Position numbers and translations under genes: made by a program | Part shown: positions 38,344 through 57,367 of the stretch, piece after piece | Position numbering within the stretch: position 1 is the stretch's first letter | Layout: every line of letters begins with the position of its first letter | The notes under the pieces: generated by a model | What the model saw: the letters and a program-made list of their open reading frames with translations, nothing else | Told to the model about the DNA's origin: nothing | The model's database searches: none | Assembly: GCF_900105155.1 (NCBI RefSeq) | Contig: NZ_LT629762.1 | Location: 5,651,501-5,715,500 of the forward strand | DNA length: 64,000 bases | Direction of reading: 5' to 3' | Source: Pseudomonas prosekii | GTDB taxonomy: Bacteria; Pseudomonadota; Gammaproteobacteria; Pseudomonadales; Pseudomonadaceae

Positions 38344-38422
38344 GGTCAATTCATCCATGCAGAGTCTTGCCAGGCCACCCGGTCTGGCATGGGCTGCACT
38401 GTAGAAACCTCGCTGGAAACAA

Positions 38423-38459
38423 AACAGACTCAGGAAAAGCCGATTTATGCGGATCAGAT
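38423..38459 (-). promoter_or_regulatory. Shared upstream element, ccoN copy
   Basis: AACAGACTCAGG-N14-GCGGATCAGAT, 80 bases before the ccoN start. The same 12-mer and 11-mer with the same 14-base gap occur upstream of ccoG at 57331-57367. Read on the gene strand, it begins ATCTGATCCGC, in which CTGAT resembles one half of an ANR/FNR site (TTGAT-N4-ATCAA); a full ANR site is not evident. Confidence 0.6.
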
Positions 38460-38601
38460 TCCAGTCAGTCCTGCGGCCATTTGACACGCTCTGATACGCT
38501 TTTTCTCGCGTACAGCTGGGCCTGTAATGCGCTGCGCTGCACGTCCACAATCGCGCATCAAATGCGCGCCGCAGAGCCGATGTCAGCCACGGCAAAACCC
38601 C

Positions 38602-38628
38602 TGTAGGAGCGAGCTTGCTCGCGATAGC
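38602..38628. repeat. Pseudomonas REP element, single
   Basis: A tgtaggagcgag-type element in which GCGAGC-TT-GCTCGC forms the hairpin. It is one of at least four places in the window with this family (also 39796, 40779 and 53867). Confidence 0.85.
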
Positions 38629-38797
38629 GGTTCCACATTCAGCCCATCTGCTGGCCGCGAATTCGCCACTGCAAGCATCCCTCTATTAACCCCGCTCAAA
38701 GCTGTTTCTGCTTGGGCCGGTACTGGCATTTTGATAGAGTCCGCCGCACTCAGCGGTTTTCGCTGCATGCACGAAATCAGAAAGGGAGTCTGGCGTT

Positions 38798-39766
38798 GTG
38801 AGTTTCGGCAAGAAGATTTTAGGGCTGACCGCAGGTTTGCTGATGCTGACGTTGTGGGGCGGCTACTTTTACGTGTTCCAGGAAAATCGCGACGGGCAGT
38901 TGGGCGGCGCCAGCGACAGCACAGCGTGGTGCGGCACGCCGCCGTCCGCCGAGGCGTTGTCGCTGGGCAAGGATCAACTGACTCTGCGCGTCACCAACAA
39001 CCTGCGCGGCGAGTTCATGCTCGGCGGCTCAGTGATCGTCTCCGAGCGCACGTTCAACCGTTACGACCTCAGTCGCAACGAACTGCGCCTGCGCCTGGAA
39101 CCGCTGCAATGGTCCAACGGTGCCACGCCGATTTTCCTCGAACAGGTGAAAATCAAGGCGCTGAGCCGTAACGTCGCCGCCGACAATAAAAGCGCTTATG
39201 CCGAACTTGAACCGCGCCCGATCAGCGTGCACGGCCGGCCCAGTGATTTCCCTTTCGACAGCTATCGGTACGGCTACAAACCGGTGCTGTATTACCTCAA
39301 GGGTAACGAACGCATTGACCTGCGCTTTCGCCACATCACCACGCTGATGGAAATGTCGAACACCTTCGCACCGACCCAGAAGTACAACCGCGCCGAGTAC
39401 ATCAACGAGAAAACCCCGCTGGTGCGTGACGAGGATTACAAGCCTTACACCGCCAACGAGTGCGCGTTCAACGTCGAGCGCAAGGGCTCGTTCAAGGTGA
39501 TTGTGTTGCTGCTGTTGCTGGTGATTTGCCTGCCGCTGCTGCACGTGTTTTATCGGGATGAACCGGGTATCGATTTTCTGGCGACGCTGGTGGGAATTGG
39601 GGCGGTGCGGGTGATGCTGGTCGGGCCGTTGCAGGATTTTCAGCTGTATACCATCGACTTCCTGTTCGCGGCGGCGATTTTGCTGGTGGGGACGGTGTCG
39701 CTGATCAAAGCGATGCGCGCTAACAGTCGACGCGAGTTGGCGGCGAAGAGTGGGTCTTCGTGGTGA
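38798..39766 (+). CDS. Membrane protein of unknown function
   Basis: A 322-residue protein with a GTG start and AAGGGAG upstream. One membrane segment at the N-terminus (residues 8-27) is followed by about 200 residues of periplasmic-type sequence. Three more segments follow (about 225-305: FKVIVLLLLLVICLPLLHVF, VGIGAVRVMLVGPL and IDFLFAAAILLVGTVSLI). The soluble part is beta-rich, with the motifs LRVTNNLRGEF and HGRPSDFPFDSYRYGYKPVLYYL. No family is recognised. It stands alone between ccoN and a REP pair. Confidence 0.68.
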   Translation: MSFGKKILGLTAGLLMLTLWGGYFYVFQENRDGQLGGASDSTAWCGTPPSAEALSLGKDQLTLRVTNNLRGEFMLGGSVIVSERTFNRYDLSRNELRLRLEPLQWSNGATPIFLEQVKIKALSRNVAADNKSAYAELEPRPISVHGRPSDFPFDSYRYGYKPVLYYLKGNERIDLRFRHITTLMEMSNTFAPTQKYNRAEYINEKTPLVRDEDYKPYTANECAFNVERKGSFKVIVLLLLLVICLPLLHVFYRDEPGIDFLATLVGIGAVRVMLVGPLQDFQLYTIDFLFAAAILLVGTVSLIKAMRANSRRELAAKSGSSW

Positions 39767-39795
39767 TCAGCGATTTGCCCCGGTTGGGCTGACGT

Positions 39796-39864
39796 CTTCG
39801 CGGGCAAGCCTCGCTCCTGCAGGGATCGCAAATTCCTCCGTAGGAGCGAGGCTTGCCCGCGAAG
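39796..39864. repeat. Inverted pair of REP elements
   Basis: A 23-base sequence at 39796-39818 is repeated in perfect inverted form at 39842-39864, with 23 bases between. Each half has the GCGGGCAAGCCTCGCTCC core of the family. The pair can form a long hairpin after the membrane-protein gene and may act as a terminator or insulator. Confidence 0.85.
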
Positions 39865-39891
39865 GGGCCTTCGGATCAACCCCGCATCACC

Positions 39892-40015
39892 TCAACGCCG
39901 GATCGCCAATATCCATTTTCTTCCAGCCCTGCAACAACACCTGCGCTTTGGGCTCCTTGCCGTTCTCCAGGCCCAAGCCACACGCCGCAAGGGTTGTTCG
40001 CGGCCCACACGGCAC
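39892..40015 (-). pseudogene. Possible 3' remnant of a lost gene
   Basis: A minus-strand frame ending ENGKEPKAQVLLQGWKKMDIGDPALR, then TGA at 39892, has no start codon and no upstream body. Another frame just before it reads VWAANNPCG, as if one base had been gained or lost. It looks like the last 35-40 codons of a deleted gene. Together with the REP pair it accounts for the 319-base space between 39767 and 40085. The parent family is not recognised. Confidence 0.3.
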
Positions 40016-40085
40016 ATTATTGATTTTTAGCTATAACTACCTAGGCGTTTTCAGTCGCGCCACGATCCTCTACAGGAGTTACAGC

Positions 40086-40757
40086 ATGAAGCTTGCGTTA
40101 ATGATGAGCACACTGTGCATCGCCTCGATCGGGGTGGTCGGCTGCTCCAGTAAAGTGGTCGAGCCCGACCAGTATTCGGGGTTTCTCAAGGACTACAGCC
40201 AGCTCAAGGAGGCCAAGTCGCCGTCGGGCGCCGAGGTCATGCGCTGGATCGACCCGAAACTCGACGTGAGCAAATTCACCAGCGTCTACATCGAGCCGAC
40301 CCAGCTGTATCCCCAGCCGCAGCCAACAGTGAAAATCCCTCAGGCAACCCTCAATGGCATCACCGGTTACTACGATCAGGCGCTCAAGCGTGAACTGGGT
40401 AAATCGCTGCCATTGGCGGCCGGCCCCGGGCCTGGCGTGATGGTGCTGCGCGCAGCGATTACCGCAGTCAGCAGCAAGACCGAAGGATTGAAGCCGTATG
40501 AAGTGATCCCGATTGCTCTGGTCGCAGCGGCGGTCAGCACCGCCAGCGGGATTCGTGATCAGGAAACCACCTTGGCCACCGAAGCGGTGTTCCTCGATGG
40601 CAGCAACAACAGCGTAGTCGCGCAAGTCGTGCGCAAGGGCACGGGCAAGCCGCTGAGCAACGACAGCCAGGTGATGAAGGCCGATGACGTAAAAAGCGTG
40701 ATCGACGGCTGGGCTTCGGATCTGCATCAGTCGTATTTGAAGATCAAATCCGAGTAA
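40086..40757 (+). CDS. DUF3313-like lipoprotein
   Basis: A 223-residue protein with a lipoprotein signal (GVVGC, Cys20) followed by SSKVVEPDQYSGFLKDYSQL, the usual start of DUF3313 proteins. VYIEPTQLYP, VMVLRAAITAVSSKTEGLKPYE and GWASDLHQSYLKIK are further family marks. The location is the outer membrane or periplasm. Function unknown. ACAGGAGTTACAGC precedes the ATG. It is monocistronic, with a REP element after it. Confidence 0.82.
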   Translation: MKLALMMSTLCIASIGVVGCSSKVVEPDQYSGFLKDYSQLKEAKSPSGAEVMRWIDPKLDVSKFTSVYIEPTQLYPQPQPTVKIPQATLNGITGYYDQALKRELGKSLPLAAGPGPGVMVLRAAITAVSSKTEGLKPYEVIPIALVAAAVSTASGIRDQETTLATEAVFLDGSNNSVVAQVVRKGTGKPLSNDSQVMKADDVKSVIDGWASDLHQSYLKIKSE

Positions 40758-40778
40758 TTTGTTGCGGCTGAGCGCCTC

Positions 40779-40807
40779 ATCGCGAACAAGCTCGCTCCCA
40801 CAGTGGG
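40779..40807. repeat. REP element, single
   Basis: catcgcgaacaagctcgctcccacagtggg-type element, one base different from the 53867 copy in its stem. It follows the DUF3313-like gene. Confidence 0.75.
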
Positions 40808-41003
40808 TTGACGACCTGGTTCGATTGAGGTGACTCAGCAGCAGCTCGTTGCCCGGGATCGGGTTTGGGCCTCTTTAAATGAACAGTGAGGCTGTATCCA
40901 ATTCAGCCGACGACACATGACAATTTGTGTTTGGGCATAGGTCGTCGGGCCATTTCGTGGTTAACTTCGGCCTCTTCATATTTCCAACAGAAGGACTCCG
41001 TTC

Positions 41004-41504
41004 ATGGCTCAAGTCACTCTTAAAGGCAACCCGGTTCAAGTCAACGGCCAACTGCCACAAGCCGGTTCCAAGGCGCCAGCCTTTTCCCTGGTGGCGGGCA
41101 ATCTGTCCGACGTGACCCTGGCGAGCTTCGCCGGCAAACGTAAAGTGCTGAACATCTTCCCAAGCGTTGACACCCCGACCTGCGCCACCTCGGTGCGCAA
41201 GTTCAACGCCCAGGCCAACGAAGTCGCCAACACCGTGGTGTTGTGCATCTCCGCTGACCTGCCATTCGCCCAGGCACGCTTCTGCGGCGCCGAAGGTCTG
41301 GAAAACGTCCAGAACCTGTCGACCCTGCGTGGCGCCGAGTTCATCGAAAACTATGGCGTAGCCATCGCAGACGGCCCGCTCAAAGGCCTGACCGCGCGTG
41401 CCGTCGTCGTGCTGGATGAAAACGACAACGTGCTGCACAGCGAGCTGGTCAAGGAAATCGCTGAAGAGCCAAACTACGACGCAGCCCTCGCTGTTCTGAA
41501 GTAA
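41004..41504 (+). CDS. tpx: Thiol peroxidase Tpx
   Basis: A 166-residue atypical 2-Cys peroxiredoxin. The peroxidatic Cys60 is in [14 protein letters not shown] and the resolving Cys94 is in [13 protein letters not shown], exactly the Tpx spacing. It reduces hydrogen peroxide and lipid hydroperoxides with electrons from thioredoxin. An AGAAGGA ribosome site lies before the ATG. It is a single gene ended by a strong terminator. The protein is close to full family length and has no signal sequence, so it acts in the cytoplasm here unless exported by another route. Confidence 0.95.
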
Positions 41505-41521
41505 GGCTTTTTACATTTGTT

Positions 41522-41550
41522 AACGGCCTGGCACTCGCCAGGCCGTTTTC
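41522..41550 (+). terminator. Terminator of tpx
   Basis: AACGGCCTGGC-ACTC-GCCAGGCCGTT followed by TTC-ATTT, 18 bases after the tpx stop. The stem is a perfect 11 bp. Confidence 0.85.
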
Positions 41551-41680
41551 ATTTGTGCTTCAGTGCCTTAGATATACCTCCTGATACGTAAGCCGAAGGT
41601 AAATTGCCGGTAAAGGCGCTTTGCTTAATGCCCGCCAGTGCTTATCGTTCAGCCTCCCGTAAAAGAAGCCCACGCGCCCA

Positions 41681-42991
41681 ATGGTTGATCATTCAATGCA
41701 ATCCTCGTCCCGTAGTTCCCGTCGCTGGCTGTTCGGCCTGCTTGTCCTGTTGGTCGTCGCCGTTGTTTGCTGGAAATTCTGGCCCACCGGCACTGACCAG
41801 AAAGAGGGCGAAAAACCGAAGGCGGCGGCGGGGCACACGGGCAAGTCCGGGGCCATGCGTCCAGGCTTTGGCGGCGCGACCGGGCCGATTCCGGTGCGCG
41901 TAGCCCCGGCGGTCAAGGGTGACTTCCCGCTGTATTACCGGGCACTGGGCACCGTGACGGCACTGAACACCATCAATGTGCGCAGCCGCGTGGCCGGCGA
42001 ATTGATGAAGATTGCCTTCGAGGAAGGGCAGATGGTCAAGGCTGGCGACCTGCTCGCCGAGATCGATCCGCGTCCTTACCAGAACGCCTTGCTCCAGGCC
42101 GAGGGCACGTTGCTGCAGAATCAGGCGCAACTGAAGAACGCTCAAGTCGATGTCCAGCGTTATCGCGGCCTGTTCAAGGAAGACAGTATCGCCAAGCAGA
42201 CCCTGGACACCGCCGAAGCGCTGGTCGGTCAATATCTGGGCACGGTCAAGACCAATCAGGCAGCGGTCAACGACGCCAAACTCAATCTCGAATTCACCAA
42301 GATCCGCGCGCCGATCACCGGGCGTGTCGGTTTGCGTCAGCTCGACGTCGGCAACCTGGTCGCCGCCAACGACACCACGGCGCTGGCGATCATCACCCAG
42401 ACGCAGCCGATCAGCGTGGTGTTCACCCTGCCGGAAAACAGCCTCGACACCGTGCTCGCGCGCTACCACACCGGCGCCAAACTGCCGGTCGAAGCGTGGG
42501 ACCGTGGCGACATGAAAATCCAGGCCAGCGGCGTGTTGCAAAGCCTCGACAACCAGATCGACGTGACCACCGGCACGCTGAAATTCAAGGCGCGCTACGA
42601 TAACCGCGATCAGGCGTTGTTCCCCAACCAGTTCGTCAACGTTCACCTGCTCGCCGACACCCTCAAAGACGTGGTGCTCGCGCCCTCGGCAGCGATTCAG
42701 TTCGGCACCAACGGCACCTTCGTCTACGCCATGGACGGTGACAAGAAAGTCACGGTTCGCGCATTGAAAGTCGGCGCCAGCGATGGCGATAACACAGTCA
42801 TCACCGAAGGCCTCGCCGCCGGTGACCGGGTGGTCCTGGAAGGCACCGACCGCCTGAAAGAAGGCAGTGAAGTGGAAGTGGTCAACGACAGCACCGAAGT
42901 GCCCACCAGCCCGACCGAACAGCTGCAAGGCAAATCCGCCGCCAAGACCACTGACGCGACTGTCACCGACAAGGCCAAGAAGGGCGCATGA
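41681..42991 (+). CDS. muxA: RND efflux periplasmic adaptor MuxA (MdtA-like)
   Basis: A 436-residue membrane fusion protein with one N-terminal anchor ([19 protein letters not shown]) and no lipobox, as in MdtA. The lipoyl halves are [24 protein letters not shown] and [19 protein letters not shown], with a helical hairpin between. An alternative ATG is at 41696; neither start has a strong ribosome site. The stop overlaps the start of the first pump gene (ATGA). MuxABC-OpmB of P. aeruginosa has two different RND subunits, like MdtABC of E. coli, and exports novobiocin-, aztreonam- and macrolide-type compounds. Confidence 0.9.
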
Positions 42992-45900
42992 ACATCTCGC
43001 GGCTGTTCATCCTGCGCCCGGTCGCCACGACCCTGAGCATGCTTGCCATTATCCTGGCCGGCATCATCGCCTATCGACTGCTGCCGGTATCGGCGCTGCC
43101 GCAGGTTGATTACCCGACCATTCGCGTCATGACGCTGTACCCCGGCGCCAGCCCGGACGTGATGACCAGTGCGGTGACCGCGCCGCTTGAGCGTCAATTC
43201 GGGCAGATGCCCGGCCTGACGCAGATGGCCTCGACCAGTTCCGGCGGCGCCTCGGTGCTGACCCTGCGTTTCAGCCTCGACATCAACATGGACGTCGCCG
43301 AACAGCAGGTGCAAGCCGCGATCAACGCCGCGACCAATCTGCTGCCGACCGACCTGCCGGCGCCGCCGGTGTACAACAAGGTCAACCCGGCGGACACCCC
43401 GGTGCTGACCCTGGCGATCACCTCGAAAACCATGCTCCTGCCCAAGCTCAACGATCTGGTCGATACGCGCATGGCGCAGAAAATCGCCCAGATCAGCGGC
43501 GTCGGCATGGTCAGCATCGCCGGCGGTCAGCGTCAGGCCGTGCGGATCAAGGTCAACCCCGAAGCCCTGGCGGCCAACGGCTTGAACCTGTCGGATGTGC
43601 GCACCCTTGTCGGCGCCTCCAACGTCAATCAGCCCAAGGGCAACTTCGACGGCCCGACGCGGGTGTCGATGCTCGATGCCAACGACCAACTGACCTCGCC
43701 CAAAGACTACGCCAACCTGATTCTCGCCTATGCCAACGGCGCGCCGTTGCGGCTCAAGGACGTCGCGGAAATCGTCGACGGCGCCGAGAACGAACGACTG
43801 GCCGCGTGGGCCAACCAAAATCAGGCAGTGCTGCTCAACATCCAGCGCCAGCCCGGCGCCAACGTGATTGAAGTGGTTGACCGGATCAAGGCTTTGCTGC
43901 CGAGCATCACCGACAACCTGCCGGCCGGCCTCGAAGTCACCGTGCTGACCGACCGCACCCAAACCATCCGTGCCTCGGTCACCGACGTCCAACACGAATT
44001 GCTGATCGCCATCGCGCTGGTGGTGATGGTCACGTTCCTGTTCCTGCGCCGCGCCAGTGCAACGATCATTCCCTCGGTCGCCGTGCCGTTGTCGCTGATC
44101 GGCACCTTCGGCGTGATGTACCTCGCCGGGTTCTCGGTGAACAACCTGACCTTGATGGCGCTGACCATCGCCACCGGGTTTGTGGTCGATGATGCGATCG
44201 TGATGCTGGAGAACATTTCCCGGTTTATCGAAGAGGGCGACAGCCCGATGACGGCGGCGCTCAAAGGCGCGAAGCAGATTGGCTTCACCCTCATTTCCCT
44301 GACGTTGTCGCTGATCGCGGTACTGATTCCGCTGCTGTTCATGGCTGACGTGGTCGGGCGGCTGTTCCGCGAGTTTGCTATCACGCTGGCAGTGGCGATC
44401 CTGATTTCTCTCCTGGTGTCGCTGACCTTGACGCCGATGATGTGCGCGCGGCTGCTCAAGCGTGAACCGAAGGAAGAAGAACAGGGCCGTTTCTACCGCG
44501 CCAGTGGCGCGACCATCGACTGGATGATCGCCGCTTACGGGCGCAAGTTGCAGTGGGTGCTCAAGCATCAACCGCTGACGTTGCTGGTGGCAATCGCCAC
44601 GCTGGGTCTGACCGTGGTGCTGTACATGGTGGTGCCGAAGGGCTTCTTTCCGGTGCAGGATACCGGGGTGATTCAGGGCATTTCCGAGGCGCCGCAGTCG
44701 ATTTCCTTTGCGGCAATGGGTGAACGGCAGCAGCAACTGGCCAAGATCATTCTCGCCGACCCGGCGGTGCAGAGCCTGTCGTCATACATTGGCGTCGATG
44801 GCGACAACGCCACGCTCAATGCCGGGCGCATGCTGATCAACCTCAAGCCGCACAGCGGCCGCGACCTCAGCGCCACCGAAATCATCGCGCGGCTGCAACC
44901 GGAAGTGGACAAATTGACCGGCATCCGGCTGTTCATGCAACCGGTGCAGGACTTGACCATCGAGGACCGGGTCAGCCGCACGCAGTACCAATTCAGCATG
45001 TCCTCGCCGGATTCGGAATTGCTCAGCCTGTGGAGCGGCCGTCTGGTCGAAGCGCTGGCGCAGCGGCCGGAGTTGACTGACGTTGCCAGTGATTTGCAGG
45101 ACAAGGGTTTGCAGGTGTTCCTGGTGATTGACCGCGATGCCGCGTCGCGGGTAGGCGTGTCGGTGTCGAACATTACCGATGCGCTGTACGACGCGTTTGG
45201 CCAGCGGCAGATTTCCACTATTTACACCCAGGCCAGCCAATACCGCGTGGTCCTGCAAGCGCAGTCCGGCGAGAAGATCGGCCCGGATGCGCTGAACCAG
45301 ATTCACGTCAAGACCACCGATGGCGGGCAGGTGCGCCTGTCGAGTCTGGCGCGGGTCGAGCAGCGTCAGGCGCAATTGGCGATTACTCATATCGGCCAGT
45401 TCCCGGCGGTGATGATGTCGTTCAACCTGGCGCCCGGCGTGGCGCTGGGGCACGCGGTAGACATCATCGAACAAGTGCAGGAAGACATCGGCATGCCGGT
45501 CGGCGTGCAAACCCAGTTCCAGGGCGCGGCCGAAGCGTTCCAGGCCTCGCTGTCGAGCACGTTGCTGCTGATTCTGGCGGCGGTGGTGACCATGTACATC
45601 GTGCTCGGCGTGCTTTACGAGAGCTACATTCACCCGATCACCATCCTCTCGACCTTGCCCTCGGCAGCGGTCGGGGCCTTGCTGGCATTGCTGTTGACCG
45701 GCAATGACCTGGGGATGATCGCGATCATCGGCATTATTCTGCTGATCGGCATCGTCAAGAAAAACGCGATCATGATGATCGACTTCGCCCTCGACGCTGA
45801 GCGCAACCAGGGCATGGCGCCGGAACAGGCGATCTATCAAGCGGCGCTGCTGCGCTTCCGGCCAATCCTGATGACCACGCTGGCCGCGCTGTTTGGCGCA

Positions 45901-46092
45901 GTGCCGCTAATGCTCGCCACCGGTTCTGGCGCCGAGCTGCGTCAACCGTTGGGTCTGGTGATGGTCGGTGGTTTGCTGCTGAGCCAGGTGCTGACGCTGT
46001 TCACCACGCCGGTTATCTACTTGTACTTTGACCGCCTCGGTCGGCGCTGGGGCCGCAAGTCCACCACCGTGGAAGCGGTAGAACAGCCATGA
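42988..46092 (+). CDS. muxB: RND efflux pump subunit MuxB (MdtB-like)
   Basis: A 1034-residue RND transporter starting [20 protein letters not shown]. Twelve membrane segments with two large periplasmic loops are seen; the proton-relay acids are in [21 protein letters not shown], and [15 protein letters not shown] is in segment 10. In the MdtBC/MuxBC pumps, two B and one C subunit form the trimer, with B mainly handling protons; this is known for E. coli and inferred here. Its start and stop both lie in ATGA overlaps, with muxA and muxC, so expression should be tightly balanced. Confidence 0.92.
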
Positions 46093-49000
46093 ACCTCTCC
46101 GGTCCTTTCATCAAGCGCCCGGTCGCGACGATGTTGCTGAGCCTGGCGATCATGCTGCTTGGCGGTGTCAGTTTCGGTCTGTTGCCGGTGGCGCCGTTGC
46201 CGCAGATGGACTTCCCGGTGATTGTGGTGCAAGCCAGTCTGCCCGGCGCCAGTCCGGAAGTGATGGCCTCGACGGTGGCGACGCCGCTGGAACGTTCCTT
46301 CGGCGCCATCGCCGGGGTCAACACCATGAGCAGCCGGTCTAGCCAGGGTTCGACGCGGGTGATTCTGCAGTTCGACCTCGACCGCGACATCAACGGCGCG
46401 GCGCGGGAAGTGCAAGCGGCGATCAACGCCTCGCGCAACCTGCTGCCGAGCGGGATGCGCAGCATGCCGACCTACAAGAAGGTCAACCCGTCGCAAGCGC
46501 CGATCATGGTGTTGTCGCTGACTTCGGACGTGCTGGAAAAAGGTCAGCTTTACGATTTGGCCTCGACCATCTTGTCGCAGAGCCTGTCGCAGGTGCAGGG
46601 CGTCGGCGAAGTGCAGATCGGCGGCAGCTCCCTGCCGGCAGTGCGCATCGAGCTCGAACCGCAAGCGCTGAACCAGTACGGCGTGGCGCTGGACGACGTG
46701 CGCAATACCATCGCCAATACCAACGTGCGCCGGCCCAAGGGTTCGGTCGAGGATGACCAGCGTCTGTGGCAGGTGCAGGCCAACGATCAACTGGAAAAAG
46801 CCAAGGATTACGAGTCGCTGATCATCCACTACAACAACGGCGCCGCCCTGCGCCTGAAAGATGTAGCGACGGTCAGCGACGGCGTCGAAGACCGCTACAA
46901 CAGTGGTTTCTTCAACAATGACGCGGCGGTGCTGCTGGTGATCAACCGGCAGGCCGGCGCCAACATCATCGAAACGGTCAACGAGATCAAGGCGCAGTTG
47001 CCGGCGTTGCAAGCGGTGCTGCCGGCCAGCGTCAAACTGAACCTGGCGATGGACCGTTCGCCAGTGATCAAAGCGACGTTGCACGAAGCAGAAATGACCC
47101 TGCTGATCGCCGTGGCGCTGGTGATTCTGGTGGTGTTCCTGTTTCTCGGTAACTTCCGTGCCTCACTGATTCCGACATTGGCCGTGCCGGTGTCGCTGGT
47201 CGGCACGTTTGCGGTGATGTACCTCTACGGGTTTTCGCTGAACAACCTGTCGCTGATGGCGCTGATTCTCGCCACTGGCCTGGTGGTGGACGACGCCATC
47301 GTGGTGCTGGAGAACATTTCCCGGCACATCGACGAAGGCGTGCCGCCGATGAAAGCGGCGTACCTCGGCGCCGAGGAAGTCGGATTTACCCTGTTGTCGA
47401 TGAACGTCTCGCTGGTCGCGGTGTTCCTGTCGATTCTGTTTATGGGCGGGATCATCGAAAGCCTGTTCCGCGAGTTTTCCATCACGCTGGCGGCGTCGAT
47501 TGTGGTTTCGCTGATCGTCTCGCTGACCCTGACGCCTATGCTCTGCGCGCGTTGGCTGAAACCGCACACGCCGGGTCAGGAAAACCGTCTGCAACGCTGG
47601 AGCCATCGGGCCAACGACTGGATGGTCGGCAAGTACGCGACCAGCCTCGACTGGGTGCTGCGGCATCGGCGCCTGACGTTGCTCAGCCTGATCATCACCG
47701 TCGGGGTCAACGTTGCGCTGTACGTGGTAGTGCCGAAAACCTTCATGCCGCAGCAGGACACCGGCCAGTTGATCGGTTTTGTCCGTGGCGACGACGGGCT
47801 GTCGTTCAGCGTGATGCAGCCGAAAATGGAAATATTCCGCCGCGCGGTGCTCAAGGACGATGCGGTACAGAGCGTTGCCGGGTTCATCGGTGGCACCAAC
47901 GGCACCAACAACGCGTTCATGCTGGTGCGCTTGAAACCGATCAACGAGCGCAATATCTCCGCGCAAAAAGTCATCGAACGGATGCGCAAGGAGATGCCGA
48001 AAGTGGCCGGCGCGCAATTGATGCTGATGGCCGACCAGGACCTGCAATTCGGCGGCGGTCGCGAGCAGACTACGTCGCAGTATTCCTACATTCTGCAAAG
48101 TGCCGACCTCGGCTCGTTGCGCGAGTGGTACCCGAAAGTCGTGACGGCGTTGCGTGCCTTGCCCGAGTTGACGGCGATTGATGCGCGCGAGGGTGGCGGC
48201 GCGCAACAGGTCACGTTGATGGTCGACCGCGATCAGGCGAAACGCCTCGGCGTCGACATGGACATGGTCACGTCGGTGCTGAACAACGCGTACAGCCAGC
48301 GGCAGATTTCGACGATCTACGACAGCCTCAACCAGTACAAGGTGGTGATGGAGGTCAATCAGAAATACGCGCAGGACCCGATTACCCTCAAGCAAGTCCA
48401 AGTGATCACCGCCGATGGCGCGCGGATTCCGTTGTCGACCATCGCCCATTACGAAAACAGCCTGGAAGATGACCGGGTCAGCCACGAAGGCCAGTTCGCC
48501 TCCGAGAGCATTTCCTTCGACATGGCCGAAGGCGTGACGGTGGAGCAGGGCACGGCGGCTATCGAGCGTGCGATTGCCAAGCTCGGCATGCCCGAAGACG
48601 TGATCGTCAAGGTCGCCGGCACTGCCGATGCATTTGCTGCCACGCAAAAGAGCCAGCCGTTCATGATTCTCGGCGCGCTGCTGGCGGTGTATCTGGTGTT
48701 GGGCGTGCTCTATGAAAGCTACATTCACCCGTTGACCATTCTGTCGACCTTGCCTTCGGCCGGGGTCGGCGCGTTGTTGTCGATTTACCTTCTCGGTGGC
48801 GAGTTCAGCCTGATCTCGCTGCTGGGGCTGTTCCTGTTGATCGGCGTGGTGAAGAAAAACGCGATTCTGATGATCGACCTCGCGTTGCAACTGGAACGCC
48901 ATCAAGGCATGAGCCCGCTGGATTCGATTCGCAGCGCTTGCCTGCAACGTCTGCGGCCAATTCTGATGACCACGCTGGCGGCGATCCTTGGCGCACTGCC

Positions 49001-49196: not shown

Positions 49197-50674
49197 CTGA
49201 CCGTTCGCTTATCACTCTGGCTGCACCGATTGCCATGGCCCGGGGCTCGCGCCTATTGAGCCTGGCGCTGTGTGTGAGCTTGCTCAGCGCTTGCGCCGTC
49301 GGCCCGGATTACCAGCGCCCGCAAACGGCGGAAATCGCCCAGTACAAGGAAGCCGAGGGTTGGCGTCAGGCCAATCCCAGCGATTCCCTTGCGCGTGGCG
49401 CCTGGTGGGAGTTGTATGGCGATCGGCAGCTCAACGGCCTGGTCGATCAACTGAACAACGCCAACCAGACTGTGGCCCAGGCCGAAGCGCGTTATCGGCA
49501 ATCGCAAGCGTTGGTCAAAAGTGCCCGCGCGGCGTTTTACCCGACAGTGGATTTGAGCGCGGGCAAGACCCGCTCAAGCCAGGGCGCCGGCAGCAGCAGT
49601 TCGAGCCTGAGCAGCTCGGCCAGCGGCATTCGCGATACCTACAGCACCGAGTTTGGCGTCAGTTGGGAAGCGGATATCTGGGGCAAACTGCGCCGTGGGT
49701 TGGAGGCCGATCAAGCCACCGCGCAAGCGAGCTTCGCCGATCTCGCGGCGATGCGCCTGAGCCAGCAGTCGGAAATGGTCCAGAACTACCTGCAATTGCG
49801 CGTGATCGATCAGCAGAAACGTTTGCTCGAATCGACGGTGGCGGCGTATCAACGTTCGCTGCAAATGACTCAGAACCAGTACCGCGCCGGTGTCTCCGGG
49901 CGGGACGCAGTGGCGCAGGCGCAGACGCAACTCAAAAGCACTCAAGCGGATCTGGTCGACTTGATCTGGCAGCGTGCGCAGTTCGAAAACGCTATCGCCG
50001 TGCTGATCGGTTTGCCGCCGGCCGAGTTCAATCTGGCGGAAAGTCAGGACATCCCGAAACTGCCGCAAATTCCCCTGAGCTTGCCGTCGCAATTGCTCGA
50101 ACGCCGACCGGACATTGCTTCCGCCGAACGCTCGGTCATTGCTGCCAACGCCAATATTGGCGTGGCGAAAGCCGCGTATTACCCGGATTTGAGCCTGAGC
50201 CTGAGTGGTGGTTACAGCAGCAGCACGTCGAGCAATCTGGTGAGTTTGCCGAACCGCTTCTGGTCGGTCGGGCCAAAACTGACGTTGCCGTTGTTCGACG
50301 GCGGCGCGCGCTCGGCGGAAGTCGATCGCAACGAAGCGCTGTACGACGAAACTGTGGCTACTTACCGCCAAACCGTGCTCGACGGTTTCCGCGAAGTGGA
50401 AAACTACCTGATTCAGCTCAAGGTCTATGAGCAGGAAGCGTCGGTGCGCCAGGAAGCACTGGACGCGGCGCGTGATTCGTTGCGTCTGACCGAGAACCAG
50501 TACAAGGCGGGATTGATCGCTTATCTGGACGTGGTGGTGGTGCAAGCGACCGCGTTGAATAACGAACAGAGCGTATTGAACGTGCTGCAGAGCCGTTTGC
50601 TGGCGAGTGTGCAACTGATCGCCGCGCTGGGCGGCGGCTGGGATGGGCAGTTACAGGTCAGCGAAGAACAATGA
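49193..50674 (+). CDS. opmB: Outer-membrane efflux lipoprotein OpmB-like
   Basis: A 493-residue OprM-family channel. The ATG at 49193 overlaps the muxC stop (ATGA), matching the other junctions of the operon, and is therefore preferred over an earlier start inside muxC. The lipobox LLSAC places the lipid at Cys34, followed by AVGPDYQRP. The NodT-type segment LLERRPDIASAERSVIAANANIGVAKAAYYP is present, and the second barrel half has FWSVGPKLTLPLFDGG. It completes the four-gene MuxABC-OpmB system. A stem-loop repeat follows. Confidence 0.9.
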   Translation: MTDRSLITLAAPIAMARGSRLLSLALCVSLLSACAVGPDYQRPQTAEIAQYKEAEGWRQANPSDSLARGAWWELYGDRQLNGLVDQLNNANQTVAQAEARYRQSQALVKSARAAFYPTVDLSAGKTRSSQGAGSSSSSLSSSASGIRDTYSTEFGVSWEADIWGKLRRGLEADQATAQASFADLAAMRLSQQSEMVQNYLQLRVIDQQKRLLESTVAAYQRSLQMTQNQYRAGVSGRDAVAQAQTQLKSTQADLVDLIWQRAQFENAIAVLIGLPPAEFNLAESQDIPKLPQIPLSLPSQLLERRPDIASAERSVIAANANIGVAKAAYYPDLSLSLSGGYSSSTSSNLVSLPNRFWSVGPKLTLPLFDGGARSAEVDRNEALYDETVATYRQTVLDGFREVENYLIQLKVYEQEASVRQEALDAARDSLRLTENQYKAGLIAYLDVVVVQATALNNEQSVLNVLQSRLLASVQLIAALGGGWDGQLQVSEEQ

Positions 50675-50678
50675 TCGT

Positions 50679-50708
50679 GATCGTTCCCGCGCTCCGCGTG
50701 GAACGATC
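50679..50708. repeat. Hairpin repeat of the GATCGTTCC type
   Basis: GATCGTTCC-N12-GGAACGATC forms a perfect 9-bp stem five bases after the opmB stop. A related copy lies at 58368-58398. It may stop transcription after the efflux operon. Confidence 0.75.
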
Positions 50709-50870
50709 AGGCTGGTGAATACAGCCTGAAATTTGTGTCAAACAAGCGTTTCATCGGCTTGATGGCCTTTTGCTCATTTTGTCAGTGCGTTCTTCCGCGC
50801 AATCAGTACAATCGCCGACTTTGCCCGCCGAGAATGGACGCAGTACGGTGGCGCAGTCACGAGAAACCCC

Positions 50871-52952
50871 ATGCTCATCGGCACCTACTCTCCCACGCTG
50901 GTTGTGATTTCGCTGTGCGTGGCGATTCTTGCGTCCTACACCGCCCTTGACCTGACTGGCCGGATTGCCACGACCAAGGGCCGCGCCGTGCATCTATGGA
51001 CGGCAGGTGGCGCGGTGGCGATGGGTATCGGCGTGTGGTCGATGCATTTCATCGGCATGCTCGCGTTCAATCTGCCGATCGACCTCGGTTACGATTTCGC
51101 CCTCACGGCGCTGTCGCTGACCATCGCCATCCTCTCGTGCGGCTTTGCTTTGTGGCTGGTCAGCCAGCCGAAACTGCCGGTCTGGCAACTGGCATTCGGC
51201 GCGCTGGTGATGGGCAGCGGCATCAGCGCCATGCATTACACCGGCATGGCCGCCATGCTCATGCAGCCCGGCATCGATTACGACCCGACGCTGTTCGGCG
51301 CCTCGCTGGTGATTGCCGTTGGCGCCTCGGCAGCAGCGTTGGCGATTGCCTTTCGCCTGCGCCAGCACACGCCGTATGTGGGTCTGATTCGTGGCGGCGC
51401 GGCGGTGATCATGGGTTTCGCCATCGTCGGCATGCACTACACCGGCATGGCCGCCGCGCGTTTCCCGGACGGCAGCTTTTGCGGCGCAGCACTCGGCGGC
51501 TTGAGCGGCAAAGGCTTGGACAATGTCGTGCTGATCACCACGCTGGCGGTGCTGAGCATTGCCTTGCTCACGTCGATTCTTGATGCACGCCTCGAAGCAC
51601 GCACTGCCGACCTCGCGCATTCGCTGACCGTCGCCAACCGCGAACTCACCCAACTGGCACTGCACGATCCGCTGACCGGGCTGCCGAACCGCATGCTGCT
51701 GGCCGACCGCATCGAGCAGGCGATGTCGAAAGTCCAGGAGCAGGGCGGTTGTTTTGCGCTGATGTTCATTGATCTAGACGGCTTCAAACCGGTCAACGAT
51801 GCCTTCGGTCACCACATGGGCGACCAGTTGTTGCGCGAAGTCGGCATACGTTTGCGCGAAGACTTGCGCAGTCAGGACACGCTGGCGCGGATCGGCGGTG
51901 ATGAATTTGTCCTGCTGGTGCGCCTCATCGAGCCGAGCGATGCGCTGAACCTGGCGTCGCGTCAGGTTGAGTTGATCGCACGCTCGTTCCAGGTCGCCGA
52001 CCACGACTTGCAAATATCCGCGAGCCTTGGCATCGCCATGTTTCCCGGCAATGGCCACACCGCGCAAGAGTTGCTGATGAACGCCGATGCCGCGATGTAC
52101 CACGCCAAAGGCGCGGGCAAAAACGGCTACAGTTTCTTCGACGCGTCGATGAACAGCAACGCGCGCAAGCAATTGCAACTGCTGCAAGACCTGCGCGCGG
52201 CGCTGGATCAGCAGCAATTTCGCCTGTACTACCAACCGAAGTTCGATGCCAGCAACGGGCGTGCGGTCGGCGCCGAGGCGTTGCTGCGCTGGGTGCATCC
52301 GACCCAGGGCATGCTGCTGCCGGCGAAGTTTATCGAACTGGCGGAAAAGACCGGTTTGATCATTCCGATTGGCGAGTGGGTGCTCAACGAAGCCTGCCGG
52401 CAGATGCGCGAATGGTATGTGCTCGGTTATACCGATTGGCGCATCGCGGTGAATCTTTCGGCATTGCAGTTCTGTCACGCGGGGCTGGTGCAAAGTGTCG
52501 CCAAAGCCTTGGCCACCCACCATTTGCCGGCCAATAGCCTGACCCTGGAAATCACCGAAACCACCGCCATGAGCGACGCCGATGCGAGCATGACGGTGCT
52601 GCAGGAACTCTCGGACATGGGCGTCGACCTGTCTATCGACGACTTCGGCACCGGTTATTCGAGCCTGATGTACCTCAAGCGCTTGCCGGCCAATGAGCTG
52701 AAGATTGATCGCGGGTTTGTCCGCGATCTGGAGCATGACAGCGATGACGCGGCGATTGTTTCGGCGATTGTTGCGTTGGGTCAGGCGCTGGGTTTGCGGA
52801 TTGTTGCGGAAGGCGTGGAGACCGGCGTGCAGCAGGATTTCCTGACCAGATTGGGTTGCGATTCGCTGCAAGGTTACCTGCTCGGCCATCCGCTGCCGGC
52901 CGAGCGCTTCATGGCCGACATCCACCGCGGCGAGCAGTTGCAGGCAGGCTGA
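50871..52952 (+). CDS. mucR: MHYT-GGDEF-EAL c-di-GMP enzyme, MucR-like
   Basis: A 693-residue inner-membrane protein. Seven membrane segments in residues 5-230 carry the MHYT motifs MHFIGMLAF, MHYTGMAAM and MHYTGMAAA, proposed to bind copper and sense oxygen or nitric oxide. A GGDEF domain follows, with GGDEF at 342-346 and an inhibitory RSQD site five residues before it. The EAL domain begins near 469 (AEALLRW) and has EITETTAM and DDFGTGYSS intact. So both cyclase and phosphodiesterase may work. MucR of P. aeruginosa has this order and length and controls alginate and biofilm. It stands alone. Confidence 0.88.
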   Translation: MLIGTYSPTLVVISLCVAILASYTALDLTGRIATTKGRAVHLWTAGGAVAMGIGVWSMHFIGMLAFNLPIDLGYDFALTALSLTIAILSCGFALWLVSQPKLPVWQLAFGALVMGSGISAMHYTGMAAMLMQPGIDYDPTLFGASLVIAVGASAAALAIAFRLRQHTPYVGLIRGGAAVIMGFAIVGMHYTGMAAARFPDGSFCGAALGGLSGKGLDNVVLITTLAVLSIALLTSILDARLEARTADLAHSLTVANRELTQLALHDPLTGLPNRMLLADRIEQAMSKVQEQGGCFALMFIDLDGFKPVNDAFGHHMGDQLLREVGIRLREDLRSQDTLARIGGDEFVLLVRLIEPSDALNLASRQVELIARSFQVADHDLQISASLGIAMFPGNGHTAQELLMNADAAMYHAKGAGKNGYSFFDASMNSNARKQLQLLQDLRAALDQQQFRLYYQPKFDASNGRAVGAEALLRWVHPTQGMLLPAKFIELAEKTGLIIPIGEWVLNEACRQMREWYVLGYTDWRIAVNLSALQFCHAGLVQSVAKALATHHLPANSLTLEITETTAMSDADASMTVLQELSDMGVDLSIDDFGTGYSSLMYLKRLPANELKIDRGFVRDLEHDSDDAAIVSAIVALGQALGLRIVAEGVETGVQQDFLTRLGCDSLQGYLLGHPLPAERFMADIHRGEQLQAG

Positions 52953-53087
52953 CGCCACAGGAAATGAGTGTTGAGCGATCTCCTGCGTCAGTGTCGGCCT
53001 CCTCATAGATGCAGGTCATGCAAAAGCGGCGAATGGCGGTTATTCTTGGCGCCGACTGCTTAAGCTTGAATTCGGGGGATCGTCAGC

Positions 53088-53834
53088 ATGGAAAAAGTCA
53101 TGGTCATCACGGGAGGCAGCCGTGGGATCGGCGCCGCCACGGCGCTGTTGGCCGCTGAGCAGGGCTATCGCATCTGCATCAATTACCTGGCGGACGAAGA
53201 AGCGGCGCAGCGTGTGCTCGACCAGGTCCGAGCCCTCGGTGCACAGGCCATTGCGGTTCGCGCCGACGTCAGCATCGAAGACGAAGTGGTCGCCTTGTTC
53301 CACCGTGTCGACACCGAACTGGGCCGGGTCACCGCGCTGGTGAACAACGCCGGCACCGTCGGGCACAAGTCGCGGGTCGACGAAATGTCCGAATTCCGCA
53401 TCCTGAAAATCCTCAAGACCAATGTTCTGGCGCCGATCCTCTGCGCCAAGCACGCAGTGCTGCGCATGTCGCCCAAGCATGGCGGGCAGGGCGGCAGCAT
53501 CGTCAACGTGTCGTCGGTGGCGGCGCGCCTGGGTTCGCCGAATGAATACGTGGATTACGCCGCGTCAAAAGGCGCGCTGGACAGCTTCACGATTGGCCTG
53601 TCGAAAGAAGTCGCCGGCGAGGGCATTCGCGTCAACGCGGTGCGGCCGGGTTACATCTACACCGATTTCCACGCCCTGAGCGGCGACCCGGACCGGGTCA
53701 GCAAACTGGAATCGGCCATCCCGATGGCCCGTGGCGGGCGCCCGGATGAAGTGGCGGAAGCGATTGTCTGGTTGTTGTCGGACAAGGCCTCGTACGCGAC
53801 CGGGACGTTTGTTGACCTTGGCGGTGGACGCTAG
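53088..53834 (+). CDS. SDR family oxidoreductase (classical)
   Basis: A 248-residue SDR with TGGSRGIG at residues 8-15, NNAG near 84-87, Ser in VNVSSVAARLG and YxxxK as YAASK, all in register. It is of the YgfF/glucose-dehydrogenase-like group with FVDLGGGR at the end. It should be an NAD(P)-dependent oxidoreductase in the cytoplasm; the substrate is unknown. GGGGGAT lies before the ATG. It is followed by an inverted REP pair and the convergent MocR gene. Confidence 0.87.
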   Translation: MEKVMVITGGSRGIGAATALLAAEQGYRICINYLADEEAAQRVLDQVRALGAQAIAVRADVSIEDEVVALFHRVDTELGRVTALVNNAGTVGHKSRVDEMSEFRILKILKTNVLAPILCAKHAVLRMSPKHGGQGGSIVNVSSVAARLGSPNEYVDYAASKGALDSFTIGLSKEVAGEGIRVNAVRPGYIYTDFHALSGDPDRVSKLESAIPMARGGRPDEVAEAIVWLLSDKASYATGTFVDLGGGR

Positions 53835-53866
53835 TCCGGAGGACCTGCGCCGTCCGGTCCGACGCC

Positions 53867-53956
53867 ATCGCGAGCAAGCTCGCTCCCACAGTGGTTGTGG
53901 TGAACACATCATCTGTGAACACCTTCAGCCCCTGTGGGAGCGAGCTTGCTCGCGAT
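53867..53956. repeat. Inverted pair of REP elements (BIME-like)
   Basis: The 25-base REP at 53867-53891 is repeated in perfect inverted form at 53932-53956, with 40 bases between. It lies between the stops of two convergent genes. Confidence 0.88.
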
Positions 53957-53983
53957 AGCCATTGACCAGGCAACACATCACAC

Positions 53984-55393
53984 TCAGAACGAACGCACGA
54001 TCCGCCCCAGCGTTTCCATCGCTTTCTCCGCAGCCTCATCCCACGGGCTGCCGTAATTCAGCCGAATACAATTCCTGAATCGCTGCGTCGGTGAAAAGAT
54101 CGGCCCCGGCGCGATGCTGATGCCTTGCGCCAACGCCATCTGAAACAACTTCAACGAATCCATCTGCGGCGGCAGTTCCAGCCACAGAAAGTAGCCGCCG
54201 GCCGGTTGGCTGACGCGGGTTTGCGCCGGGAAATACCGGGCGATGGCCGCGAGCATGGCGCTTTGCTGTTCTTCCAGTGCGTAACGCAATTTGCGCAAGT
54301 GCCGGTCGTAGCCGCCGTGTTGCAAGTAATCGGCAATCGCCGCTTGTGCCGGCATCGAGGCGCACAGCGAGGTCATCAGTTTCAGCCTTTCGATTTTCTG
54401 CGCATAACGCCCGGCCGCAACCCAGCCGATGCGATAACCGGGAGCGAGGCTTTTGGCGAACGAACCGCAATGCATCACCAGCCCTTCGGTGTCGAACGCC
54501 TTCGCCGGTTTCGGCGCTTGCTGGCCGTAATAAAGTTCGGCGTAGACATCGTCCTCGATCAGCGGCACCTGATGGCTGCGCAGCAATTCGACCAATTCCT
54601 GCTTCTTCGCTTCGGGCATCGTCGCGCCCATCGGGTTCTGGAAACTGGTCATGCACCAGCAAGCCTTGATCGGATGGCGCTCCAGCGTTTGCGCGAGCAC
54701 GCCGAGGTCGATGCCATCGCGCGGGTGCACGGGGATTTCCACCGCTTTGAGCTTCAGCCGTTCCAGCACTTGCAGGCTCGCGTAAAACGCCGGGGCTTCG
54801 ATGGCCACCAGGTCGCCCGGTTCGGTCACCGCTTGCAGGCACAGGTTCAGCGCTTCGAGCGCGCCGTTGGTGATCAGCAATTCTTCCATCGGCAGCATCA
54901 GCCCGCCGACCATGTAGCGCAGGGCGATTTGCCGGCGCAGTTGCGGGTTGCCCGGCGACATGTCGGTGACCACCATGCGCGGGTCCATTTCCCGCGCGGC
55001 GCTGGCCAGCGAGCGCGACAGCCGCTGCAACGGAAACAGCGTCGGGCTGGGGAACGCCGAGCCAAATGGCACGGTGTTCGGGTCCTTGATCGAGTCGAGC
55101 ACCGAGAACACCAGTTCGCTGACGTCGACTTCGGTGGATTCGTTGACCTGGCTGCTGATCACCGGTTCGCAGAACGGGCTCGGCGCGTGGGTGTTGACGA
55201 AGTAACCCGAACGCGGCCGCGCACGGATCAGGCCCCGGCGTTCCAGCAGGTAATAGGCCTGGAACACGGTGGACGGGCTGACCCCGTAAGTCTGGCTGGC
55301 GTAGCGCACCGACGGCACCCGCTGACCGGGGCCAAGCACCCCGGAGCGGATCAGTTCAGCGATGTCATCGGCGAATTTTTCGTAGCGTTTCAT
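53984..55393 (-). CDS. MocR-type GntR/aminotransferase regulator
   Basis: A 469-residue protein with an N-terminal GntR winged helix (KFADDIAELIRSGVLGPGQRVPSVRYASQTYGVSPSTVFQAYYLLERRGL) and a C-terminal fold-type I aminotransferase domain. The PLP lysine is in HCGSFAKSLAPGYRIGW, and SFQNPMGATMPEAKK and EDDVYAELYYG are further pocket residues. MocR proteins usually act as regulators that bind PLP with an amine; some control vitamin B6, GABA or taurine genes. The target here is not clear. Its upstream region is occupied by the repeat block at 55441-55826. Confidence 0.88.
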   Translation of the reverse strand: MKRYEKFADDIAELIRSGVLGPGQRVPSVRYASQTYGVSPSTVFQAYYLLERRGLIRARPRSGYFVNTHAPSPFCEPVISSQVNESTEVDVSELVFSVLDSIKDPNTVPFGSAFPSPTLFPLQRLSRSLASAAREMDPRMVVTDMSPGNPQLRRQIALRYMVGGLMLPMEELLITNGALEALNLCLQAVTEPGDLVAIEAPAFYASLQVLERLKLKAVEIPVHPRDGIDLGVLAQTLERHPIKACWCMTSFQNPMGATMPEAKKQELVELLRSHQVPLIEDDVYAELYYGQQAPKPAKAFDTEGLVMHCGSFAKSLAPGYRIGWVAAGRYAQKIERLKLMTSLCASMPAQAAIADYLQHGGYDRHLRKLRYALEEQQSAMLAAIARYFPAQTRVSQPAGGYFLWLELPPQMDSLKLFQMALAQGISIAPGPIFSPTQRFRNCIRLNYGSPWDEAAEKAMETLGRIVRSF

Positions 55394-55839
55394 CGAGTGC
55401 CTTGTTGCCGGGTGGTTGTGTGGGGGTGTCAGGGGGATTTGCCCCTCACCCTAACCCTCTCCCCAAAGGGGCGAGGGGACTGACCGAGGTGTTCTTTCGA
55501 GTGACATCGACCTGAGATAACGCGCCGAACGCAGGTTTGAAAAGCATGAAGGTTGGCACCTTTTCCCCTCTCCCAAAAAGAGTGAGGGGACTGACCGACG
55601 TATTCTTTCGAGTGACATCGACCTGAGATATCACGCCGAACGCAGGTTTGAAAAGCATGAAGGTCGGCTCCCTTTCCCCCTCTCCCCAAAGGGGCGAGGG
55701 GACTGACCGAGGTATTCTTTCGAGTGACACCGACCTGCGATATCGCGCCGAACGCAGGTTTGAAAAGCATGAAGATCGGCTCCCTTTCCCCCTCTCCCCT
55801 CTGGGGAGAGGGCTGGGGTGAGGGGTGGATTGTAAGGGC
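55394..55839. repeat. Block of three approx. 111-bp repeats with flanking inverted CCCTCACCC repeats
   Basis: The stretch between the MocR and CcoG genes holds no convincing gene. A unit starting ctgaccga at 55480, 55591 and 55703 recurs with periods of 111 and 112 bases; each unit carries gaacgcaggtttgaaaagca near its middle and a ccctctcccc-type hairpin at its edge. The left end reads ccctcaccctaaccctct and the right end gggctggggtgagggg, so a common Pseudomonas inverted repeat bounds the block. Small differences between copies show that they are not identical. Confidence 0.85.
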
Positions 55840-57270
55840 TCAACGGTTCATCGGCGCAACAAAGCGGCTCTGCGCCACGCTGTAGATGTCCGGTTCATCG
55901 CTGTCGACAATCCTGAAACTGAGCGTCTGCGAGCTGCTGCTCGGGCGCTCCGTGGTCATCGCCACCGACACCGGCACATCGACAATCTCACCCGGCGCCA
56001 GGCTCAGTTCGGTTTTACCCTGCAACTGGAAACCCTCGCCATCGACCAGGCTCACCCGATAATCCTGACGCTGCTGGGTCTTGTTGATGACCTTGAGGCT
56101 GTAGATGTTCTCGATCTGGCCGGCGCTGTTTTCGCGGAACATGCCACGGTCCTTGGTCACGTCCAGCGAGACCATCGGCCGCTCGACCAGCGCCAAGGCC
56201 AGCGCACCGATCATCACCAGCAACACCGCCGTGTAGCCGATCAGCCGAGGTCGCAGCAAATGGGTTTTGCCGCCCTGCAATTCGTGCTCGGAGGTGTAGC
56301 TGATCAGGCCTCGCGCGTAGCCCATTTTGTCCATGATCGAATCGCAAGCATCGATGCACGCCGCACAACCAATGCATTCCATCTGCAAACCGTCGCGGAT
56401 GTCGATGCCGGTCGGACACACTTGCACGCAAACCTGGCAGTCGATGCAATCGCCGAGGCCGACGTCGCTCGGTTTCACATCACGTTTGCGCGGGCCACGG
56501 TTTTCGCCACGGGCGACGTCGTAGGAAATGGTCAACGTGTCTTTGTCGAACATCACGCTCTGGAACCGCGCGTATGGGCACATGTGCATGCACACCGCCT
56601 CGCGCAGCCAACCGGCGTTGATGTACGTGGCGCCGGTGAAGAAGATCACCCAGAACAGGCTGACGCCGGCCATTTGCAGGGTCAGCAGCTCTTCGGCCAG
56701 CGGCCGGATCGGCGTGAAGTAGCCAACGAAGGTCAACCCGGTGAGCAGGCTGATGCTCAGCCACAACGCATGTTTGGCCGAACGACGGAGGAATTTGTTC
56801 AGGCTCCACGGCGCGGCTTGCAGTTTGATCCGCTGGTTGCGCTCGCCTTCGGTTATTTTCTCGCACCACATGAACAGCCACGTCCACGAGCTCTGCGGGC
56901 AGGTGTAACCGCACCAGACGCGGCCGGCGAACACGGTGATCGCAAACAGACCGAACGCGGCAATGATCAGCAATGCCGAGAGCAGGATGAAATCCTGCGG
57001 CCAGAAGGTGGCGCCGAAGATGTGGAATTTGCTTTCCGAGAGGTCCCAGAGCACCGCTTGGCGGCCGCCCCAGTTCAGCCACACCGTGCCGAAGAATGCG
57101 AGAAACAGCACGCCGGCGCCGCTGATACGCAAGTTGCGGAACAGGCCGGTGAAGCTGCGAGTGTGGATCAGGTTGTCGCTGGACTTGGCCTTCATCTTTG
57201 GACGCGAAGGCTCATAGCGCTGGACTGCCGGGGCGCTCTCTACGGTTCGGACGGGGATTCTTTCGCTCAT
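55840..57270 (-). CDS. ccoG: Cytochrome c oxidase accessory protein CcoG
   Basis: A 476-residue protein from the ATG at 57270 (MSERIPVRTVESAP); an ATG at 57294 would add 8 residues. It has about five membrane segments. A CGYTCPQSSWTWLF region and two ferredoxin-type clusters follow: CIDCQVCVQVCP and CIGCAACIDACD. The C-terminal part is an Ig-like FixG domain. CcoG/FixG is a copper reductase that supplies Cu(I) for cbb3 oxidase assembly. The rest of the cco operon is not here, yet the upstream element is shared with the orphan ccoN. Confidence 0.9.
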   Translation of the reverse strand: MSERIPVRTVESAPAVQRYEPSRPKMKAKSSDNLIHTRSFTGLFRNLRISGAGVLFLAFFGTVWLNWGGRQAVLWDLSESKFHIFGATFWPQDFILLSALLIIAAFGLFAITVFAGRVWCGYTCPQSSWTWLFMWCEKITEGERNQRIKLQAAPWSLNKFLRRSAKHALWLSISLLTGLTFVGYFTPIRPLAEELLTLQMAGVSLFWVIFFTGATYINAGWLREAVCMHMCPYARFQSVMFDKDTLTISYDVARGENRGPRKRDVKPSDVGLGDCIDCQVCVQVCPTGIDIRDGLQMECIGCAACIDACDSIMDKMGYARGLISYTSEHELQGGKTHLLRPRLIGYTAVLLVMIGALALALVERPMVSLDVTKDRGMFRENSAGQIENIYSLKVINKTQQRQDYRVSLVDGEGFQLQGKTELSLAPGEIVDVPVSVAMTTERPSSSSQTLSFRIVDSDEPDIYSVAQSRFVAPMNR

Positions 57271-57330
57271 GGTCGTTCGCTCATCAGCCTCCATCAGGCC
57301 GGTGCACTATGAGCGGCGATCTGTTTGCAG

Positions 57331-57367
57331 AACAGACTCAGGCATTGCAATAAAAAGCGGATCAGAT
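57331..57367 (-). promoter_or_regulatory. Shared upstream element, ccoG copy
   Basis: AACAGACTCAGG-N14-GCGGATCAGAT, 61 bases before the ccoG start. The 12-mer and 11-mer are the same as at 38423-38459, with the same gap length but different bases in the gap. This suggests the same regulator for ccoG and the orphan ccoN, such as an oxygen-response protein. Confidence 0.6.

Follow-up and report, generated by a model that had tools for sequence, protein, structure and literature searches.

Which regulator reads two identical DNA elements that lie 19 kb apart in one genome, each before a lone gene connected with cbb3-type cytochrome oxidases? The elements occur in a 64,000-nucleotide stretch of the Pseudomonas prosekii genome (contig NZ_LT629762.1, positions 5,651,501 to 5,715,500; hereafter the window), one upstream of an orphan ccoN and the other upstream of an orphan ccoG, and each consists of two conserved blocks enclosing a spacer. 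A sequence-only reading had taken them for a functional site with a free spacer, and had proposed common, oxygen-linked control of both genes by a regulator other than ANR. We find support for the functional site, for the common control and for the different regulator, the signal being likely to be cyanide rather than oxygen: at a probability of about 0.88, both elements serve as operator/promoter sites for MpaR, a pyridoxal-phosphate-type (MocR) regulator whose proposed gene (53984-55393) directly follows ccoG. The features concerned are these:

36907..38343, minus strand: orphan ccoN (ccoN4-like), cbb3 oxidase subunit I (TIGR00780, 724 bits, above the curated cut-off)
38398..38403, minus strand: predicted -10 hexamer TACAGT of ccoN4 (site positions 57-62), from sequence and conserved register
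38423..38459, minus strand: MpaR-type bipartite site before ccoN4, ATCTGATCCGC-N14-CCTGAGTCTGTT, by pattern match
53984..55393, minus strand: MocR-type regulator, proposed MpaR orthologue (GntR DNA-binding domain and aminotransferase fold)
55840..57270, minus strand: orphan ccoG (ccoG2, second copy; proposed counterpart of PA14_10540; TIGR02745, 564 bits, above the curated cut-off)
57306..57311, minus strand: predicted -10 hexamer CATAGT of ccoG2 (site positions 57-62), from sequence and conserved register
57331..57367, minus strand: MpaR-type bipartite site before the ccoG2-mpaR pair, ATCTGATCCGC-N14-CCTGAGTCTGTT, by pattern match

A pattern scan confirmed that the two copies match without a mismatch across both blocks and share a 14-base gap; both lie on the minus strand and are thus oriented toward ccoN4 and ccoG2, whose ATG codons follow 80 bp (ccoN, 38343) and 61 bp (ccoG, 57270) downstream. 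No match to the element at up to three mismatches arose in 100 dinucleotide-preserving shuffles of the window, and at the same tolerance the strict pattern finds only the two window copies in the 6.09 Mb genome (reversed control, 0). Two sets of identical blocks, 19 kb apart, could in principle be functionless leftovers of a duplicated promoter, a case the sequence-only reading had itself raised; yet the gap and flanks of the two promoters are unrelated (identity 4/14 in the gap, 16/43 downstream and 17/60 upstream), which speaks against simple copies, and relatives across the family share the blocks, so that we give this explanation practically no weight.

Across the genus, the strict pattern is present in 161 of 199 genomes, and its reversed control in none of the 199. 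After four duplicate matches were dropped, 132 deduplicated strict sites (two from P. prosekii, the others from 130 loci among the matches listed) were available for inspection of the genes behind them. A member gene follows 127 of the 132: ccoG2 (65), ccoN4 (37), a microprotein gene described below (17), a nirA-like nitrite/sulfite-reductase gene (7; best NCBIfam match ferredoxin-nitrite reductase, 235 bits, below the cut-off of 594) or mpaR (1). Five are without a recognised gene, and four of these (L049, L052, L082 and L111) we take to be chance matches. The fifth, a good site at L014:1501-1537 (genome G043) with CATAGT in register, possibly precedes an undetected small gene.

We then weighed the linkage in loci selected without use of the motif: a search with a regulator protein as its sole query gave 451 loci, and the 80 best, all named, were fetched; P. 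aeruginosa is not among these 80. Upstream regions were scored as 1.5 times the mismatches to ATCTGAT plus the mismatches to CTGAGTCTGTT, so that low scores mark good sites. At a score of 4.5 or less, a site precedes 79 of 79 ccoG2 genes, 4 of 4 ccoN4 genes, 34 of 35 nirA-like genes and the single lone mpaR, a score reached by 0 of 3000 mononucleotide-shuffled windows; random 320-bp windows (n=4000, drawn from longer loci with real sites included) score 4.5 or less in 2.2% and 6 or less in 3.4%. Elsewhere in the family, 20 regulator loci representing 14 other genera contain 17 ccoG2 genes, each with the site before it; in the three loci that lack ccoG2, the usual place before mpaR holds no site. 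The pooled tallies (ccoG2, 162/162; mpaR, 21/201; duplicate flanks dropped) include motif-fetched loci, and we draw no conclusion on linkage from them. Genes found behind the site are ccoG2, ccoN4 and nirA-like genes, together with some lone mpaR genes and, unexpectedly, microprotein genes. The regulator itself is present in 194 of the 199 genomes (E <= 1e-130), and the strict pattern accompanies it in 160 of these 194, against one of the five regulator-negative genomes (Fisher p 0.005); in 29 of the 34 regulator-positive genomes without the strict pattern, a member gene is preceded by a diverged site (score <=4.5).

A regulator for such sites has been described in P. aeruginosa. There, PA14_10540 (a CcoG orthologue) and mpaR form one operon beside ccoN4 and nirA; ccoN4 expression needs mpaR, with cyanide needed for its full level; and transcription of ccoN4 in dependence on MpaR and cyanide requires the heptamer ATCTGAT, which ends 61-62 bp upstream of three mapped transcript starts (Smiley et al., PMC10790758). 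The P. prosekii locus shares with these MpaR-dependent promoters (ccoN4, PA14_10540-mpaR and nirA) the ATCTGAT block and the kinds of genes, a GntR/aminotransferase-type regulator adjoining ccoG, and predicted -10 hexamers in a register that agrees with the mapped starts (PMC10790758). It differs in the spread of its genes over 19 kb and in having a microprotein gene as a predicted extra target; and whereas the available part of PMC10790758 describes only the 7-mer, P. prosekii has a 37-bp site with a second block at fixed spacing. Because the gene order (ccoG, then a MocR regulator) and the domain architecture match those of P. aeruginosa, we propose that the product of 53984-55393 is the MpaR orthologue and would act on both sites. 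The gap between ccoG2 and mpaR (window 55394-55839, 446 bp) holds, by eye, several imperfect copies of a repeat of about 115 bp; the two genes are closer together in other genomes, so the repeats may have entered the operon.

If the P. aeruginosa spacing between block and start (PMC10790758) is applied to the window, with the start at site position 69, transcripts are predicted to begin near 38391 for ccoN4 and near 57299 for ccoG2, and TACAGT and CATAGT both fall at -12 to -7. ATCTGAT, the start of the left block, then lies at about -68 to -62, and the right block, CTGANTCTGTT, at about -42 to -32, overlapping a -35 region whose hexamer looks poor. Over the five gene classes, the near-invariant columns of the site are CTGAT (3-7), G10, TG (28-29) and CTGT (33-36), along with A58 and T62 of the -10 hexamer; C27 reaches 0.88, and positions 13-16 are T-rich. 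The distance from ATCTGAT to CTGA is 19 bp in all matches with up to three mismatches when 17-22 bp was allowed, and two matches with four mismatches have block gaps of 18 and 22. The right block, the fixed 19-bp gap and the fixed -10 position would, judged from these alignments, extend the published 7-mer to a full promoter.

Could an oxygen-linked regulator read the sites instead? Binding by ANR or RoxR, with the genes answering to low oxygen, would suit two cbb3-oxidase genes, and the ccoN4 promoter contains CTGATCCGCATAAA, two mismatches from an ANR box. The consensus of the ANR dyad is TTGATNNNNATCAA. With at most one mismatch required, the dyad fails at the ccoN4 promoter (two mismatches), and no match with up to two mismatches overlaps the ccoG2 site, and we reject it as the explanation; ccoG2-type sites have mostly T in their second half, not ATCAA. 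The genome also holds two further ccoN copies (732928 and 736629) and a further ccoG (740181) in a cluster at 732928-741518, which makes the window genes the extra, orphan copies, and here the check before ccoNOQP that the sequence-only reading had suggested came out negative: the two other ccoN copies and the other ccoG lack the element, with best scores of 7.0 to 9.5 within about 500 bp upstream and no site at up to two mismatches in a relaxed whole-genome scan. The first of these ccoN copies carries an ANR-like box with a single mismatch. In P. aeruginosa, deletion of anr left planktonic ccoN4 expression unchanged and lowered it slightly in biofilms, an effect that the authors linked to the promotion of cyanide production by ANR (PMC10790758). 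On this evidence, which concerns ANR, oxygen-linked control is unsupported, and we consider it very improbable; the same observations, together with the mpaR data from P. aeruginosa (PMC10790758), support the expectation of a regulator other than ANR, and shared control by such a regulator, with cyanide as its signal, is likely.

A second alternative accepts MpaR for one half of the site only: in a composite element, ATCTGAT would be the MpaR half and the right block would serve an unrelated partner or be just an unusual -35 element. The published mutation was confined to ATCTGAT (PMC10790758), the right block overlaps the -35 region, and a comparison for repeats gives no clear pairing of the two blocks. 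By eye, CTGA recurs at 24 bp and TCTG at 30 bp; a matrix comparison ranks shifts of 19 and 24 first and leaves the expected shift of 30 outside the best eight, and we claim no clean direct or inverted repeat. Against a composite element, the 19-bp gap recurs in every match with up to three mismatches, and both blocks also occur together before lone mpaR genes; we regard this alternative as unlikely, if a good deal less so than oxygen control. Several MocR proteins bind direct repeats placed head-to-tail, two or three helix turns apart, and the operators of GabR, TauR and PdxR likewise present two same-facing blocks before target and regulator genes (PMC5320631); the two same-facing CTG blocks of P. 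prosekii fit this head-to-tail pattern, but they are not clear copies of one half-site. The same 2016 survey names cytochrome oxidases among MocR-regulated genes, and its main text contains no mention of MpaR, PA4132 or cyanide.

Several observations weigh against MpaR as the reader of the whole site. No half-site repeats clearly pair within it, although MocR proteins usually bind repeats; the proposed orthology of the regulator draws on gene order and domain architecture; and the MpaR motif put forward in an in-vitro study that PMC10790758 cites is another one, rich in GC. Shared ancestry is not accounted for in the co-occurrence test. Five of the 34 regulator-positive genomes without the strict pattern have no site at 4.5 or less in the stretches fetched, and where mpaR follows ccoG2 it mostly lacks a separate site. 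One genome in which mpaR was not found (G167, L391) carries one strict motif and a microprotein gene with a site; either the regulator has been lost there or the assembly has a gap; the other four mpaR-negative genomes were checked by the strict pattern only.

Taking MpaR as the reader of both blocks, we infer a promoter mechanism in which it would bind the two blocks directly and bring RNA polymerase to the -10 hexamer at a fixed distance, a recruiting role suggested because the right block runs into a -35 region with a poor hexamer. Cyanide would act through a cyanide-modified cofactor of MpaR to turn the target genes on; this step is a hypothesis in PMC10790758 and is stated more firmly in PMC12688703. 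By switching on ccoG2-mpaR, MpaR would set up positive feedback; its second target would be ccoN4, and its third, encoded outside the window, a membrane microprotein of 27 residues. The best reading of the P. prosekii regulon is accordingly one of three predicted promoters (ccoG2-mpaR, ccoN4 and the microprotein), the first two being carried over as cyanide-switched targets by analogy with P. aeruginosa.

The microprotein emerged from 11 sites, in presumably P. putida-like genomes, behind which no gene was apparent at first. The idea of a small RNA there was dropped once the aligned sequences revealed an open frame with changes at third positions, and a ribosome-site-like stretch; the three microprotein loci tested against Rfam matched no family. 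Behind the ribosome-site-like stretch lies a frame of 27 codons, for example MGKLALFLGGFLLLTILIGILGTIPPS, with more forms behind other sites, and the products have 27-28 residues with the consensus MGKLAxFLxGFLALTIxIGxLGTIPPx, whose hydrophobic sequence, by inspection, predicts a single-span membrane protein. Coding is supported by 81 distinct DNA versions that yield 56 proteins, with a median dN/dS of 0.23 (1598 pairs) and no invariant third codon positions against 14 invariant second positions of 26. P. prosekii has its own copy outside the window:

genome 5413166-5413202: third MpaR-type site, ATCTGATCCGTATTTTCTGGTGTTATCTGCATCTGTA, before the microprotein gene
genome 5413308-5413388: microprotein gene (L225), 27 residues, 238 kb before the window

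The relaxed whole-genome scan returned exactly three sites at up to two mismatches, those of the microprotein, ccoN4 and ccoG2; at up to three it gave nine, against two in the reversed control, and we take the six with three mismatches as background. A profile of 11 proteins, the P. prosekii one included with those found behind sites, finds the microprotein in 153 of the 199 genomes at E < 1e-6 (counted by eye), and in 164 at E <=0.5, of which 11 with E > 0.01 were dropped. A site lies upstream of all 71 microprotein genes examined (that of P. prosekii, the best 30, then 40 more), at a distance of 93-198 bp, with a score of 4.5 or less in 69 and of 6 in two. In five genomes (G026, G031, G066, G116 and G136) the microprotein is the only member gene with a site in the stretches fetched; mpaR there is without a site, and the stretch fetched contains no ccoG2. 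Of 119 genomes in a family sample, 6 have a match, each belonging to the genus, and the 106 sampled genomes from 18 other genera have none at E <= 0.01; in an order sample, 3 of 145 match, that of P. prosekii well and two over part of the length at E ~0.008.

What might the microprotein do? One form searched against PDB sequences found no match, and the 11 proteins matched nothing in Pfam and nothing above cut-off in NCBIfam, in which proteins so short are easily missed; none of these searches (PDB chains for one form, Pfam, NCBIfam) revealed similarity to a known small oxidase subunit. Tiny membrane proteins linked to oxidases are known in CcoM (36 aa, cbb3 oxidase) and CydX (37 aa, cytochrome bd), from which the microprotein differs in being a separate gene whose link to an oxidase is by analogy. 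An oxidase subunit is on that analogy a guess. We put forward, as a tentative proposal at somewhat less than even odds, that the sites define a genus-wide cyanide regulon, among whose unstudied members the microprotein is the most widespread, and that this protein is a new small subunit or an aid to assembly, by which a terminal oxidase would be kept working under cyanide. The upstream half of the site has already been published; the microprotein as a target is new as far as searched, and in the open-licence literature searched, mostly at listing level, we found no description of the full two-block site or of the microprotein.

Cyanide sensing by bacteria is little understood, and MpaR is among the few candidate sensors (PMC10790758). 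With the full site and its fixed promoter geometry, the predicted MpaR regulon becomes readable from many Pseudomonas genomes, and an MpaR-type system appears to reach well beyond one pathogen. The microprotein adds a target without a match in the family libraries searched, one that is kept where mpaR has no site, and its role could tell how respiration is shielded from cyanide.

Around the P. prosekii microprotein gene, a catalase/peroxidase gene ends about 0.8 kb upstream (329 bits over its last 197 residues), and a terminator-like hairpin with a T stretch, seen by eye, follows the microprotein stop codon. A relative of the microprotein, 85% identical (E 2e-4), lies at NZ_CP143488.1:381474-381551, on a 1.17 Mb record filed as a Pseudomonas silesiensis plasmid.

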